Part shown: positions 15,904 through 21,050 of the stretch, piece by piece
Layout of the letters: each line of letters begins with the position of its first letter
How positions within the stretch are numbered: the stretch's first letter is position 1
NCBI RefSeq assembly: GCF_033472595.1
Contig: NZ_CP137642.1
Span: 1 to 64,000 of the forward strand
Direction: 5' to 3'
DNA from: Methanoculleus receptaculi
GTDB lineage: Archaea; Halobacteriota; Methanomicrobia; Methanomicrobiales; Methanoculleaceae
DNA: 64,000 nucleotides
Position numbers and translations under genes: made by a program
Notes under the pieces: generated by a model
The model's input: only the letters and a program-made list of their open reading frames with translations
The model's database searches: none
Told to the model about the DNA's origin: nothing

Positions 15904-16722
15904 ATGAAACAGATTGCCCTCTACGGGAAAGGGGGAATCGGGAAATCCACCACTGCAGCAAATCTCTCGGCAGCACTTGCAGAAGAGGGGCTCGATATCC
16001 TGCAGATCGGCTGCGACCCCAAACACGACAGCACCCGTATGCTGGTCCACGGCACATGGATCCCGACAGTCCTCGACCTCATCCGGGAGCGCGGAGACGC
16101 AGACATCACCGTCGACGACGTAGTCTACAGGGGCTTCGCGGGCGTGCGCTGCGTGGAGGCCGGCGGCCCGGAGCCCGGCATAGGCTGCGCCGGCCGCGGG
16201 ATCATAGCAACGTTCCAGCTCCTTGAGCGCCTCGACGCCCTGAAGGGCGACGTTATAGTCTACGATGTCCTGGGGGATGTCGTATGCGGGGGGTTTGCGA
16301 TGCCTATGCGCGAGGGTTATGCCCGGGAGATCTACCTGGTCACCTCCGGTGAACTCATGTCCATCTACGCCGCAAACAACATAGCCAGAGCCATCGCCCG
16401 TCTATCCCGCCGGGCGCGGAGCAGGTGCTCCCTCGGCGGCGTCATCTGCAACGCAAAGAACATCGAGGGCGAGGCGGAACTGGTGGAGGAGTTCGCCCGC
16501 CGGATCAACTCCCGCATGATCGCCTATATCCCGCGGTCGAGGATCGTGCAGGTTGCAGAACTGCAGAAACGGACCGTCATCGAGTATGCCCCCGAATCCG
16601 AGCAGGCCGGGGTTTACCGGGATCTCGCACGGCTGGTATACGGTAACGATACAACGAGCATCCCCACGCCCATGGAGATGGATGAGATCGAATCCTTCGC
16701 CCTCGAGTTCGTCCAGGTTTGA
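15904..16722 (+). CDS. NifH-like iron-sulfur ATPase (nitrogenase-like reductase)
   Basis: A 272-residue homologue of the nitrogenase Fe protein. It shows the P-loop GKGGIGKS at 8-15, the switch CDPKHDST and the two cysteines that bind the bridging [4Fe-4S] cluster in a dimer: C95 in GCAGRG and C128 in DVVCGGF. The family passes electrons to a component-1 partner with ATP hydrolysis. The start at 15904 gives the usual [11 protein letters not shown] beginning. Its stop lies inside the NifD-like gene (41-bp overlap), so the pair is co-translated. Candidates are CfbC (F430 synthesis) or an uncharacterised nitrogenase-like reductase. No cfbB, cfbE or genuine nifDK are in the window. Confidence 0.85.
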
Positions 16723-17749
16723 GGGTTGCACCCTGACCGGGGCTCTATCTGTGGCAACTGAGGTGAGGGACGCCGTCTGCGTCATCCACGGCCCGGCGGG
16801 CTGCACCCACCACAACTTCTCTCTCCTGCACGCCACCAGCCTCTCGAACGACCGCCCTGCTCTCCCCCGGCTGCTCTCCACCAGCCTGGTGGAGAGCGAT
16901 ATCATCTTCGGGGGTGAGGACGCCCTCGAGACCGCCCTGGAACGTGCGCTCGCCCTCTCGCCGGCGTCCATCTTCGTCCTCTCGACCTGCATCGTCGAGA
17001 CTATAGGGGACGACATCGCTGCGGTCTGCGCAAAGGATCGGGGCGTCCCGGTGATCCCGATCCCTACCGCCGGGTTCCTTGGCGGCGTATTTGAGACCGG
17101 GGTAAAAAACGCCCTGGCCGCCGTCGCATCGCTTGCCCCGCCATCGAGCGAGAGGACTCTCTCGGCAAACCTGATCGGGGAGAAGAACCTGGAGTACGGC
17201 GTCGACGAGAACGCCGCCGAGGTCTCCCGGCTCTTAAAGAGGCTCGGGCTCCCGGTCAACCTGCGGTTCGTGCGGGGGATCAGGACGCATGATCTCGACC
17301 GGCTCGGTGCCGCCGCCGTGAACATCCTCCGGGAACCCGCGCTCGGGCCTATCGGCGAGGATCTCAAACAACGGTATGGCACACCATACATCGAGTCGTT
17401 CCCGACCGGACTTGGGGGGACCTGCCGGTTCCTTGAGGAGGTCGGCCGGGCGTGTGGCATCGATACCCTGGCCGCCGTCGAGGAGGAGCGGGCATACCAG
17501 GCGGCAATGCTTGAAAGATTCGATGATATAGCCGGAAGCCGGATCCGGTTCCAGTCCCCCCATCCCATTCTCAGAGGCGACCCGGAGGTGGAGACCATCT
17601 GCACGGAGTGTGCCGACGCCCTCAGCCTCACCATAGACCCGGAGGGGGTCGCCGTCCCCTCACCCTATCCTCCGCCCGTCGGGACAGGAGGGGTCGGCCG
17701 GATGCTGCACCGGTGGAGGGTGCTCATCCGGGATAAGGGGCGCGGCTGA
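16682..17749 (+). CDS. NifD-like nitrogenase component-1 subunit
   Basis: About 355 residues; start ATG 16682 is the first plausible one and overlaps the nifH-like gene. Three cysteines sit where NifD/CfbD/BchN place cluster ligands: C16 (EGCTLTG), C41 (HGPAGCTHH) and C103 ([11 protein letters not shown]). A second segment around [16 protein letters not shown] matches the region of NifD that holds the FeMo-cofactor cysteine (NifD Cys275), but no cysteine is there. The third domain is short and weak compared with NifD (about 490), closer in size to CfbD (about 360). It probably pairs with the NifK-like protein at 19887-21050. Substrate unknown; CfbD is the main alternative. Confidence 0.78.
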
Positions 17750-17836
17750 AGGGTGTATTGGCGCTGCCCGCGGAGCGCACAGAATCCATTTTATACCCCT
17801 GATAGAAAAGACTACATCTGGAGAGAGTGCCAGAGT

Positions 17837-18310
17837 ATGTTTGAACGCATCCTGTTTCCAACGGACTTCTCAGAGCCCTCGATGAAGGTTCTGGACTACA
17901 TCCCCGCATTGCACGGGGTGGGAACCCGTGAGATCATCCTCGTCCACGTAATCGACTCAAAGGATATCGGGCTTGGCGCCTCCGGTGGACAGGGGTTCCT
18001 TGGAACGGTATCAAACCAGGAGACCGAGGCCCGGCAGGGGTTGCAGACCGAGGTCCAGCACCGGATAATCGACACCCGCCGGGCGCTTGAGAAGCAGGGG
18101 TTTGAGGTGACCGTCCTGACGCCCGCCGGCAACCCCGGAAAAGAGATTGTGGCCGCCGCCGATGCCGAGGGAGCATCGCTTATAGTCCTTGGCTCTCACG
18201 GCCGGTCAAACATCCGGGACCGCCTGCTCGGGACGGTCTCGGAGTATGTTATCAAGAATGCCAATCAGCCCGTCCTGGTCATCAAGCGGGGGAAGGAGAG
18301 CGGGAGATAG
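17837..18310 (+). CDS. Universal stress protein (UspA family)
   Basis: A 157-residue cytosolic alpha/beta protein beginning MFERILFPTDFSEPS, the standard UspA opening. The ATP-binding signature G-x2-G-x9-G-S/T is seen as GSHGRSNIRDRLLGTVS near 125-141, so this is the ATP-binding type. It follows the NifD-like gene by 87 bp; TTTTATAC near 17790 could be its own TATA box. Link to the nitrogenase-like genes is only by position. Confidence 0.88.
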   Translation: MFERILFPTDFSEPSMKVLDYIPALHGVGTREIILVHVIDSKDIGLGASGGQGFLGTVSNQETEARQGLQTEVQHRIIDTRRALEKQGFEVTVLTPAGNPGKEIVAAADAEGASLIVLGSHGRSNIRDRLLGTVSEYVIKNANQPVLVIKRGKESGR

Positions 18311-18337
18311 GCGGGGCCGCCACCCCCTTTTCCTCTC

Positions 18338-18922
18338 TTATCTCCTCTGTCCGGCCTCAAGCAGGTTCCGGATAGCCCGCAGTTCCTCCACCACCGCACC
18401 GAACTCTGCCGCCCTTTCGGGTTCGCCTTCGGTTGCAACGGGGCCGCTTTTCCGGACAAACCCCATGATCGTCTCCTGGAGGTCTTTTGGGTCGGCGATC
18501 CCGGTCAGGACGATCTCTGAGCGCGCCTGCCCCGAGTAGCCGGCGGTCTGCACCCGGAGGGATGAGAAAGAGAAGAACCGCATCAGCGGCCCCTGGGAGA
18601 TATCGACGTTTGTGATCCGGTTGTACGGGACTATCCCGGTCTGCCGGAACCAGACACCGCGCTCCCAGGTGATCTCGGTCTGGGTGAGGCGGTAGGTTAT
18701 ACTCTCGCAGTAGAGAGGTATCCACCAGGCGACAAAGATTATGACGGCAACCGTTGGTATGGCAAGGCCGAGGCCGACCACACGCGGGGTGAAGACCACG
18801 GTCGGGATAAGCCAGGGCAGGATCAGGACGACGAGACAGATCAGGAAGGTAGTGTAGAGGTAGGTGCGGTACGCCGGCACCGGTTTGAACTCTTTGCCGA
18901 TAGGGTAGGTGAGAGGGGACAT
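18338..18922 (-). CDS. PH-domain (bPH2) membrane protein
   Basis: About 194 residues starting MSPLTYPIGKEFKP. Two adjacent hydrophobic segments (about 20-70, with YLYTTFLICLVVLILPW and AIPTVAVIIFVAWW) are followed by a bacterial PH-like domain: YRLTQTEITWERG, PYNRITNVDISQGP, FSSLRVQTAGYSG and EIVLTGIADPKDL. The last about 35 residues are a charged helix. This layout is typical of YdbS/YdbT-type proteins of unknown function. The in-frame ATG 18 bp earlier (18940) is less likely. The gap 18923-19418 holds only a doubtful 51-codon frame. Confidence 0.78.
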   Translation of the reverse strand: MSPLTYPIGKEFKPVPAYRTYLYTTFLICLVVLILPWLIPTVVFTPRVVGLGLAIPTVAVIIFVAWWIPLYCESITYRLTQTEITWERGVWFRQTGIVPYNRITNVDISQGPLMRFFSFSSLRVQTAGYSGQARSEIVLTGIADPKDLQETIMGFVRKSGPVATEGEPERAAEFGAVVEELRAIRNLLEAGQRR

Positions 18923-18950
18923 GTTACAAAAGGCTTTCAATCCAGCAGGG

Positions 18951-19106
18951 TTAAGCCTTTACGATCCCCAGGGCATCTCCGGAGGATGCAGCGGTCTGCC
19001 GTGAATCGCTGCTCGTGGCGCCGCGGTTCTCCGGTGCGGCCGCGAGGCAGACCTCCCCGGCGCCTATCCCCCTGAAACCCTCGATGACGCCAGCAGGAAG
19101 CCTCAT
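18951..19106 (-). CDS. Possible small protein, 51 residues, unrecognised
   Basis: An open frame from ATG 19106 to TAA 18951, rich in Ala, Gly and Ser, with no motif I know and a weak ribosome binding site. It could be chance in GC-rich DNA. The rest of 19107-19418 shows no feature. Confidence 0.15.
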   Translation of the reverse strand: MRLPAGVIEGFRGIGAGEVCLAAAPENRGATSSDSRQTAASSGDALGIVKA

Positions 19107-19418
19107 GACCCATCCCGTTTTAGGCCGGCTCTCCAGATGAGCCGCGATGGTTTAACCGGCGATCTGGCCGCCGGATTCCGCAACAGGGAACATCTGGGGG
19201 GAGAGGAAGCCGGCCGTTCTCCGCGCTCGATGTTGCAGACCGCCCGGGAATTGCCGTCCAGATGGCCCCTGATCCTCATCTTCATACAGAACTGGCTTGC
19301 TGGAGGGCATAAATCCAGTTTGGTATCCTCGAATCACCAAAGCGATGAACGCCTTTCGTGACTGCACCCCCGGAATCCGTCCATGGAGAGGTTTTTTGCA
19401 CCGCCGGTGAGGTGAGAC

Positions 19419-19790
19419 TCATCCCGGAGGCGCGGCAAACCGCTCCCCGCGTTCGGCCCAGTTCTCGACTGGCGGTTCGTAGAGGACGATACAGAGATCT
19501 TCAGGGCGGATCCCGGGGCTACGGCCAAGGTTCCCGACGATCGCCCGGAAGAGGGCCTCCTTCTTCTCGGCGGTGCGCCCGGGCATAAGGCTGACCTCGA
19601 TCAGGATAGCATCGTCCGACCGACCTGGAGGCAGCGGGAAGTTCTCCTCTTTTCGCTCGCAGACCCTGATCCAGAGGGCGGCCTCCGGGGTTTGCAGCGC
19701 TTCGATGAATGCCCTGCGGACGCTCTCGATCATCGACCTCCGGTATTCGACCGGTTTTCCCATACGGATCTCAATCTTTACAAGCGGCAT
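19419..19790 (-). CDS. Tautomerase-superfamily protein
   Basis: A 123-residue protein starting MPLVKIEIRMGKP; after methionine removal Pro-1 is the general base typical of 4-oxalocrotonate tautomerase and related enzymes. It continues with the helix RRSMIESVRRAFIEAL and the strand DDAILIEVSLMPGRT, then a second half (KKEALFRAIVGNLG and DLCIVLYEPPVENW), so it is a longer two-part member rather than the 62-residue type. Substrate unknown. It lies 96 bp downstream of the NifK-like gene on the same strand and may share its transcript. Confidence 0.8.
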   Translation of the reverse strand: MPLVKIEIRMGKPVEYRRSMIESVRRAFIEALQTPEAALWIRVCERKEENFPLPPGRSDDAILIEVSLMPGRTAEKKEALFRAIVGNLGRSPGIRPEDLCIVLYEPPVENWAERGERFAAPPG

Positions 19791-19886
19791 TCAGACCACA
19801 TCCGGCAGGCCTCGGGGAGACGGAGACGGCTCCCCCGCTTACCTGTATGAGCGTTCCGATAGCCGGGTCTTAACGCTTCCCAGGCA

Positions 19887-21050
19887 TCAGTCCACCGCAG
19901 AGGAACCCCTGCGCCGGTGCCGGTCGATACAGGCGTTGAGCACCACCTCCATCAACCGGAGCGCACCCTCAACCCCCGCAACCGCGGGTGAAGAGAGGGT
20001 GACCCTGTTCCTGAGCGGGGGCGTCAACCCGACGAACGCGGCGTCCGGGGCGAGCGCCTGCTCGTAGGACGAGCCAAGGATCAGGTCGGGCTCTGCGTCC
20101 ATGATCATCTCCCGGATCAGGGCAAGGTCGGTCGTATGGGTGATCCCGGTCTTCCCGGGACCCGGGTCGTTCCTGGCGGCGATAAAGGCTATATCCGCAC
20201 CGAGATACCGGTCGAGAAGGTCGGCGGCGTACTCAGCGTAGGCGGCGCCGCCCGCTATCGCCACCACAGGAGGATCAAACCGGCGCAGGTATTTGTCACA
20301 GCCTTTCCTGATCCTGGCATCCGCCCACGCCGCCTCCTCTGCGACCGGGCGGGCATCGACTCCATCGATCGCGGCTCCAAGCCGCTCGAAGGTCTCGCCG
20401 AGGAGATCAAGACCGAGGAGCGAACCACAGGTTGTGCCAACACCGGGCGCAAGATCCGGGTTTGTCTCGACGGTGAACGGCGCCGCCCGCCGGGTTGCGG
20501 CGTAGCGGTCAAGGCAGAACGTGGTCTGCACAGGCACACCGGCGAGATTGAGAAGCCGCCGCGCCTCTATGGCGTTTCCCCGGCAGAAAGGGTCGAGAAG
20601 AGAGATCCCGCCTATGTTGACGCCCGGCGCGGCGGGATCGACCTCCGGTGAGATCGCCTCAAGCGCCGCCCTGTAACCGGTCTCGAGATAGCCGAGGAAC
20701 CCGGGACTGTCGATGAACAGAACCCGGTCACCATGGCCGAGATCGCTCATATCCTCGCCGATGATCGCCGGCACACATGTGTTGACCACGGCTATCCGGC
20801 TGTAGCGGTCGTCGATCTCCGCTATAACCTCCCGCAGCCTTGACTCCGTGCCGAATATAACCTCGTTCTCAAGAAGAAACGTCCCGTATATGGGAGCACC
20901 GATGAGCGAGGCGGGGTAGAAGTAGCAGCCGCTTGAACCGTGGACGACAACGGCAACGTCCTCAAACCCGGCCAGGCAGGCCGCCGCACCGGTCATCGCG
21001 CAGGGCCAGAGCGGGTTCTCGCAAGGATTATGCTGCTCTTCTGGCATCAT
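19887..21050 (-). CDS. NifK-like nitrogenase component-1 subunit
   Basis: A 387-residue protein of the nitrogenase component-1 fold. Cysteines C17 (LWPCAMTG), C42 (HGSSGCYFY) and C92 (NTCVPAIIGED) correspond to the three cluster ligands of component-1 subunits. The middle domain has GPxx-like loops (GISLLDPFCRGN), and the last domain keeps a Rossmann-like pattern (VVAIAGGAAYAEYAADLL) and a typical end (ALAPDAAFVGLTPPL, then GVEGALRLMEVVLNA). It differs clearly from the NifD-like protein at 16682-17749, which argues for a heteromeric enzyme. It is 33 bp downstream of leuB on the same strand, so it may be read from the leu operon. Confidence 0.78.
   Translation of the reverse strand: MMPEEQHNPCENPLWPCAMTGAAACLAGFEDVAVVVHGSSGCYFYPASLIGAPIYGTFLLENEVIFGTESRLREVIAEIDDRYSRIAVVNTCVPAIIGEDMSDLGHGDRVLFIDSPGFLGYLETGYRAALEAISPEVDPAAPGVNIGGISLLDPFCRGNAIEARRLLNLAGVPVQTTFCLDRYAATRRAAPFTVETNPDLAPGVGTTCGSLLGLDLLGETFERLGAAIDGVDARPVAEEAAWADARIRKGCDKYLRRFDPPVVAIAGGAAYAEYAADLLDRYLGADIAFIAARNDPGPGKTGITHTTDLALIREMIMDAEPDLILGSSYEQALAPDAAFVGLTPPLRNRVTLSSPAVAGVEGALRLMEVVLNACIDRHRRRGSSAVD

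Follow-up and report, generated by a model that had tools for sequence, protein, structure and literature searches.

Which enzyme is encoded by a NifH-like gene that runs into a NifD-like gene, with a NifK-like gene close by on the other strand, in a methanogen? We addressed this question for positions 15904 to 21050 of a 64,000-nucleotide stretch of Methanoculleus receptaculi (contig NZ_CP137642.1, positions 1 to 64,000; the whole stretch is hereafter the window), whose three genes we refer to as H, D and K. A sequence-only reading had taken them for a heteromeric nitrogenase-like reductase trio. Our analysis upholds D and K as a pair distinct from CfbD, whereas H did not hold up as a reductase component private to that pair. 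By its NCBIfam model and as the only candidate, H is identified as CfbC, and because it is the sole NifH gene of the genome and is kept in relatives without D and K, the supposed trio is better read as CfbC together with D-K, another enzyme that it serves. The gene identities, the single H gene, the conserved cysteines, the missing cofactor ligands, the order-wide conservation and the joint loss of D and K were all obtained by computation. Most likely, one Fe protein (CfbC) serves two different component-1 enzymes across a whole order of methanogens, the Methanomicrobiales.

Identity of H, D and K

The H gene (15904–16722, + strand, ATG at 15904 to TGA at 16722) encodes a NifH-type ATPase of 272 amino acids with the P-loop GKGGIGKS and the 4Fe-4S ligands C95 and C128, which are invariant in the alignment of all 37 orthologues. 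D (16682–17749, + strand, 355 amino acids) starts with an ATG at 16682 inside the end of H, so that the two genes overlap by 41 nt, and K (19887–21050, − strand) encodes 387 amino acids. The open reading frames (ORFs), coordinates and cysteine positions of the sequence-only reading proved exact throughout. In a Pfam profile search, H matched PF00142 (1.7e-107) and both D and K matched PF00148, D over profile positions 1-265 of 399 only (1.1e-56) and K from end to end (4.8e-37).

Against the NCBIfam model NF033200 (F430_CfbC), H scored 419.6 bits with a cut-off of 402, while its score on the nifH model (393.6 bits) fell just below the cut-off of 394.35. The F430_CfbC model gave similar values for H of Methanospirillum (419 and 421 bits) and for the CfbD-adjacent H of Methanosarcinales (416 bits), and only 318 bits for the H domain of a fused H-D protein of Methanosarcina. 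In the closed 1.98-Mb genome, H reached 359 bits on PF00142 and every other match was at 44 bits or below; H is the genome's sole NifH-family gene. The genes for CfbB (640 bits), CfbD (501 bits) and CfbE (340 bits) lie together at ~940–944 kb, 925 kb from the window locus, and have no cfbC among them. A search for cfbCD elsewhere in the genome therefore gave a divided answer: a true CfbD was found, but no second CfbC, since H itself carries that identity. Two relatives (G124 and G080) each hold a single PF00148 gene, with a CfbD-like score, and a single NifH gene, which is this H; H must therefore power CfbD in them, and because relatives without D and K retain H with a single CfbD, H would serve F430 synthesis too.

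D and K, on the other hand, stayed far below the cut-off of 268 of the CfbD model TIGR03282, with 44 and 46 bits. A component-1 tree of 120 proteins, built by a quick search with Shimodaira–Hasegawa-like approximate likelihood ratio test (SH-aLRT) support only, resolved CfbD (100), D (99) and K (100) as separate clades. Within it, D was placed in the half holding NifD and NifE, and K had as its sister group (97) the K-like partner of a fused H-D protein that occurs in Methanosarcinaceae and a few Methanomicrobiales. We had considered that D, together with H, might be a misread CfbCD; for D this was ruled out by the TIGR03282 score, the tree and the separate true CfbD.

The cysteines of the two subunits were assigned by aligning D and K with annotated NifD and NifK. 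C16, C41 and C103 of D (codons 16727–16729, 16802–16804 and 16988–16990, + strand) occupy the columns of NifD C62, C88 and C154, and C17, C42 and C92 of K those of NifK C70, C95 and C153, i.e., the P-cluster ligand columns. All six are invariant across 33 orthologues and make up the P-cluster pattern of six cysteines from two subunits that the sequence-only reading had pointed out. By contrast with this 3+3 set, none of 17 D sequences has a cysteine at the column of NifD Cys275, which ligates the FeMo-cofactor (FeMoco), the counterpart of NifD His442 falls in a part of domain III that is absent from D, and no other conserved Cys/His pair was seen in D. The same reading's view that dinitrogen fixation is unlikely is borne out by this alignment. 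Taken together, the profile scores, alignment and tree support D and K as a predicted heteromeric pair that could ligate a P-cluster but not FeMoco and that is distinct from CfbD. A further cysteine, C10 of K (codon 21021-21023, − strand), is near-invariant (32 of 33 orthologues) in a CxNPLWPC motif and stands seven residues ahead of the first P-cluster-type cysteine.

The AlphaFold single-chain models (mean predicted local distance difference test, pLDDT, of 91.3 for D and 93.4 for K) show three full domains in K, whilst the last domain of D (III) is cut down to beta-alpha-beta-alpha. This C-terminal shortening is common to all orthologues and comes with an invariant C-terminal motif, which ruled out a frameshift as its source. 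A Foldseek comparison with the PDB gave as the top match of D the tetrapyrrole reductase BchB (TMq 0.71), a subunit of dark-operative protochlorophyllide oxidoreductase (DPOR), and for K equal matches to VnfK and BchB (TMq 0.81).

Conservation, gene order and co-evolution

Both D and K were found in ~124 of 135 Methanomicrobiales genomes, a few of them partial. K without D occurred in two genomes, both fragmented assemblies, and nine genomes had neither gene, namely those of genus g25 (taken as Methanospirillum), G080 and the incomplete G099; Methanospirillum and G080 retain H. The loss of K from relatives that keep H and D, which had been named as an observation that would speak against a D-K enzyme, was not seen, and nor was a grouping of D with CfbD. 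The D and K distances were correlated at 0.86, and at 0.70 when H was controlled for; the two genes evolve together and are kept or lost together, which lends indirect support to a D-K heteromer. Since they are dispensable in Methanospirillum and G080, they are not part of core F430 synthesis. In the comparison of the window with one relative (G044), the ratio of non-synonymous to synonymous substitution (dN/dS) was 0.045 for H, 0.25 for D and 0.21 for K. Both D and K are thus under purifying selection, which excludes chance ORFs, and both diverge far faster than H.

Outside the order, the D profile found no match above 194 bits in 393 genomes of the phylum, against at least 388 bits inside it. 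A scan of GTDB for D and K outside the order returned weak bacterial matches only (at most 36%), K alone being searched within the order only. By these searches, D is confined to the Methanomicrobiales.

A contiguous H-D-K operon is present in most of the order, and K follows D directly on the same strand at all 26 loci sampled from families other than that of the window. Inside the window's own family, which includes Methanoculleus, D and K are parted by inserted genes. In the window these span 17753–19790 and comprise a gene for a protein like the universal stress proteins (17753-18310, + strand, neighbour cluster 11), a membrane protein gene (18338-18940, − strand, cluster 10) and a tautomerase-like gene (19419-19790, − strand, cluster 23), all named by eye; we do not regard them as belonging to the system. 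The genes around H-D-K, also named by eye, are unrelated and give no hint of its role; they include TrkH-like, flavodiiron-like, uridine-kinase-like, desulfoferrodoxin-like and leucine/Aks-like genes. A conserved protein of ~140 amino acids with no Pfam match is encoded right after K in 10 loci (e.g., L121:7146-7574), and one relative (G108) carries two complete H-D-K operons, on contigs C28 and C32.

A probable second client of CfbC and its possible substrate

What D-K might do can be outlined from these features. It is likely, and we hold this part with good confidence, that D-K is a heteromeric component-1 reductase fed by CfbC, i.e., the second client of CfbC. We infer the formation of the complex, its electron path and the type of its cluster as follows. 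As CfbC hydrolyses ATP, its 4Fe-4S cluster (C95, C128) would hand low-potential electrons to D-K, where an Fe-S cluster, probably a P-cluster or a related one, held at the D/K interface by the six cysteines, would take them up. The electrons would then go to the reduction of a substrate that the protein itself binds, as suggested by the absence of residues to ligate a cofactor of the FeMoco or L type and by the loss of most of domain III of D; that loss could also make room for a larger ligand. The same CfbC would supply the distant CfbD for F430 synthesis. The likeliest class of substrate would be a tetrapyrrole, related to F430, a corrinoid or sirohaem, because the other client of CfbC acts on a tetrapyrrole, the fold of D is nearest to BchB, and most loci of the sister H-D fusion hold corrinoid or chelatase genes. 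If D-K is indeed a CfbC-fed reductase, we would by this analogy put a tetrapyrrole substrate at even or slightly better. The best explanation as a whole, namely that a heteromeric reductase powered by CfbC relays electrons through a P-cluster-type centre, has no metallocofactor at its active site and probably acts directly on a tetrapyrrole, we advance tentatively, at a little short of even. Its most specific form, a reductase driven by ATP and peculiar to this order, with a complete P-cluster, no active-site metallocluster and an Fe protein shared with F430 synthesis, which would reduce a tetrapyrrole or other large ligand in the cavity left by domain III of D, is possible but on balance improbable; if true, it would be a type of nitrogenase-family enzyme having a P-cluster without an L- or M-cluster.

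Several observations weigh against this explanation. In the family's tetrapyrrole reductases the cluster is of the 4Fe-4S type and has fewer cysteine ligands, the K of the sister H-D fusion system has one of the three P-cluster cysteines, and the fold matches to BchB barely exceed those to nitrogenases. Besides, cfbC is the only tetrapyrrole gene adjoining D-K, and Methanospirillum and G080 do without the pair. The H tree, with long branches and several deep nodes open, sets H of the Methanomicrobiales apart from the CfbC clade of Methanosarcinales, which leaves orthology unsettled as far as trees are concerned.

Among the other explanations, that D-K is a reductase of small molecules, cleaving C-S, C=C or C=N bonds like methylthio-alkane reductase (Mar) or other nitrogen fixation-like (Nfl) enzymes, fares best, though we regard it as unlikely. 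A heteromer with six P-cluster-type cysteines plus an H protein is the plan of Nfl enzymes and of MarHDK (PMC12552129), and the pair is universal in one order of methanogens. However, Mar carries an [Fe8S9C] cluster (PMC12552129) and retains the cysteine ligating it, at the Cys275 column, whereas D has neither this residue nor most of domain III, and the neighbours include no genes of sulfur metabolism. The missing ligand speaks against a Mar-like C-S reductase and bears less on other small-molecule reductions.

D-K could instead be a NifEN-like scaffold or insertase that passes the [8Fe-9S-C] cluster of NifB to McrC/Mmp7 of the activation complex of methyl-coenzyme M reductase (MCR). Three L-type clusters take part in MCR activation, and methanogens lacking nitrogenase cannot do without NifB (PMC12176620); as this leads one to expect, a nifB gene is present in the window's genome, which has no nitrogenase (G000:C1:1844028-1844846, 368.8 bits), and in 133 of 135 relatives. 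This co-occurrence does not discriminate, because NifB is near-universal and stays where D-K was lost, as in Methanospirillum and G080. The best NCBIfam score of D is on nifE (115 bits), which also fits a scaffold, yet the cysteine that holds the L-cluster in NifE lies at the same column as NifD Cys275, where D has none and no alternative Cys/His pair, domain III is reduced, and the D family is limited to a single order, unlike the activation complex, which is general. We therefore consider such a role quite improbable.

Hardly more can be said for D-K as an auxiliary of CfbCD that adjusts or stores CfbC and is no separate catalyst, a role we rate as very unlikely. The constant linkage to the sole cfbC gene and the overlap of H and D would suit it, but relatives that make F430 lack D-K, both subunits diverge far more than H, and electron transfer is implied by six cluster ligands that are conserved without exception. 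That D-K is what decay has left of a former nitrogenase-like enzyme, as the shortened D and the split operon of Methanoculleus might hint, is scarcely credible given that the shortening with its invariant motif is shared by all orthologues, that both genes are under purifying selection and that most of the order keeps both.

Comparison with known nitrogenase-like systems

The CfbC-fed reductase that we favour can be set beside the known systems of the family. With CfbCD it shares H, and the size of D (~355 amino acids) is that of CfbD, but D and K are two distinct subunits with six cysteines. With the nitrogenases NifDK, AnfDK and VnfDK the pair has the six P-cluster cysteines in common, but not the FeMoco ligands, and scores lie far below the model cut-offs (71 versus 654 bits on nifD for D, 53 versus 427 bits on nifK for K). 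The distance to NifEN, apart from the missing L-cluster cysteine, is seen in 115 bits against a cut-off of 505 on nifE for D and 18.5 bits against a cut-off of 327 on nifN for K. DPOR (BchL-BchNB) is likewise a heteromer with a NifH-type ATPase and no active-site metallocofactor, and D-K may work in a DPOR-like way; in BchB, however, two of the cysteine columns are occupied by Asp and Pro, and on the bchN and bchB models D reached 47.6 and 72 bits against cut-offs of 420 and 490, with K giving no match among those listed.

The nearest relative of K belongs to the H-D fusion system, in which a protein of 737-797 amino acids is accompanied by the K-like partner (L252:5834-9408, L255, L256, L257, L258 and L259). 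It too combines H, D and K, has no FeMoco ligands and has its D in the same half of the tree, but its H and D are fused and its D has a full domain III. Most of these loci hold genes for corrinoid transport or chelatases (FecCD/periplasmic-binding ATP-binding cassette transporters, CbiZ, CbiK, CobN and ChlI/D), and the fusion and its partner are likely a nitrogenase-like system for handling tetrapyrroles or corrinoids.

Other component-1 genes were observed alongside. The window's genome encodes a third non-CfbD component-1 protein, of 396 amino acids, two genes downstream of cfbB-cfbD-cfbE (L009:7927-9117, − strand, corresponding to G000:C1 ~937.9-939.1 kb). It has three P-cluster cysteines and, unlike D, a cysteine at the NifD Cys275 position (7 of 7 relatives); its occurrence is sporadic, near cfbD in several genomes. 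Three loci of other Halobacteriota (L263, L266 and L269; families f10 and f28) hold an uninterrupted series of four component-1 genes and as many as three NifH genes.

Nfl proteins are defined as PF00148 heteromers whose genes accompany a PF00142 gene and whose FeMoco ligands are incomplete; D-K, a predicted heteromer, belongs among them. The kind is already known, since NifEN-related Nfl pairs with 3+3 P-cluster cysteines and neither FeMoco ligand are described as a class, the yellow nodes, in Dos Santos 2012 (PMC3464626), which also mentions, as 'data not shown', a nifH-nifE fusion followed by nifN, matching the H-D fusion system. No description of the present D-K set was found in the literature searched, subscription papers being outside the search. 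Compared by the ligand pattern described there, D-K agrees with the yellow-node pairs in its 3+3 cysteines and in lacking Cys275 and His442, but differs in the loss of the greater part of domain III from D, in having as its H the F430 enzyme CfbC, and in the restriction of D to Methanomicrobiales. To judge by the accessible literature, three features are new, namely an H-D-K operon found across the order, a D of reduced length and a CfbC that is shared, and D-K of the Methanomicrobiales is probably an undescribed ATP-driven reductase. As a deep-branching heteromer with a complete set of P-cluster ligands and no ligands for an active-site cofactor, it is relevant to whether the P-cluster or the L-cluster came first in this family, and it offers a conserved gene pair that can be tested in cultivable methanogens (Methanoculleus and Methanocorpusculum).

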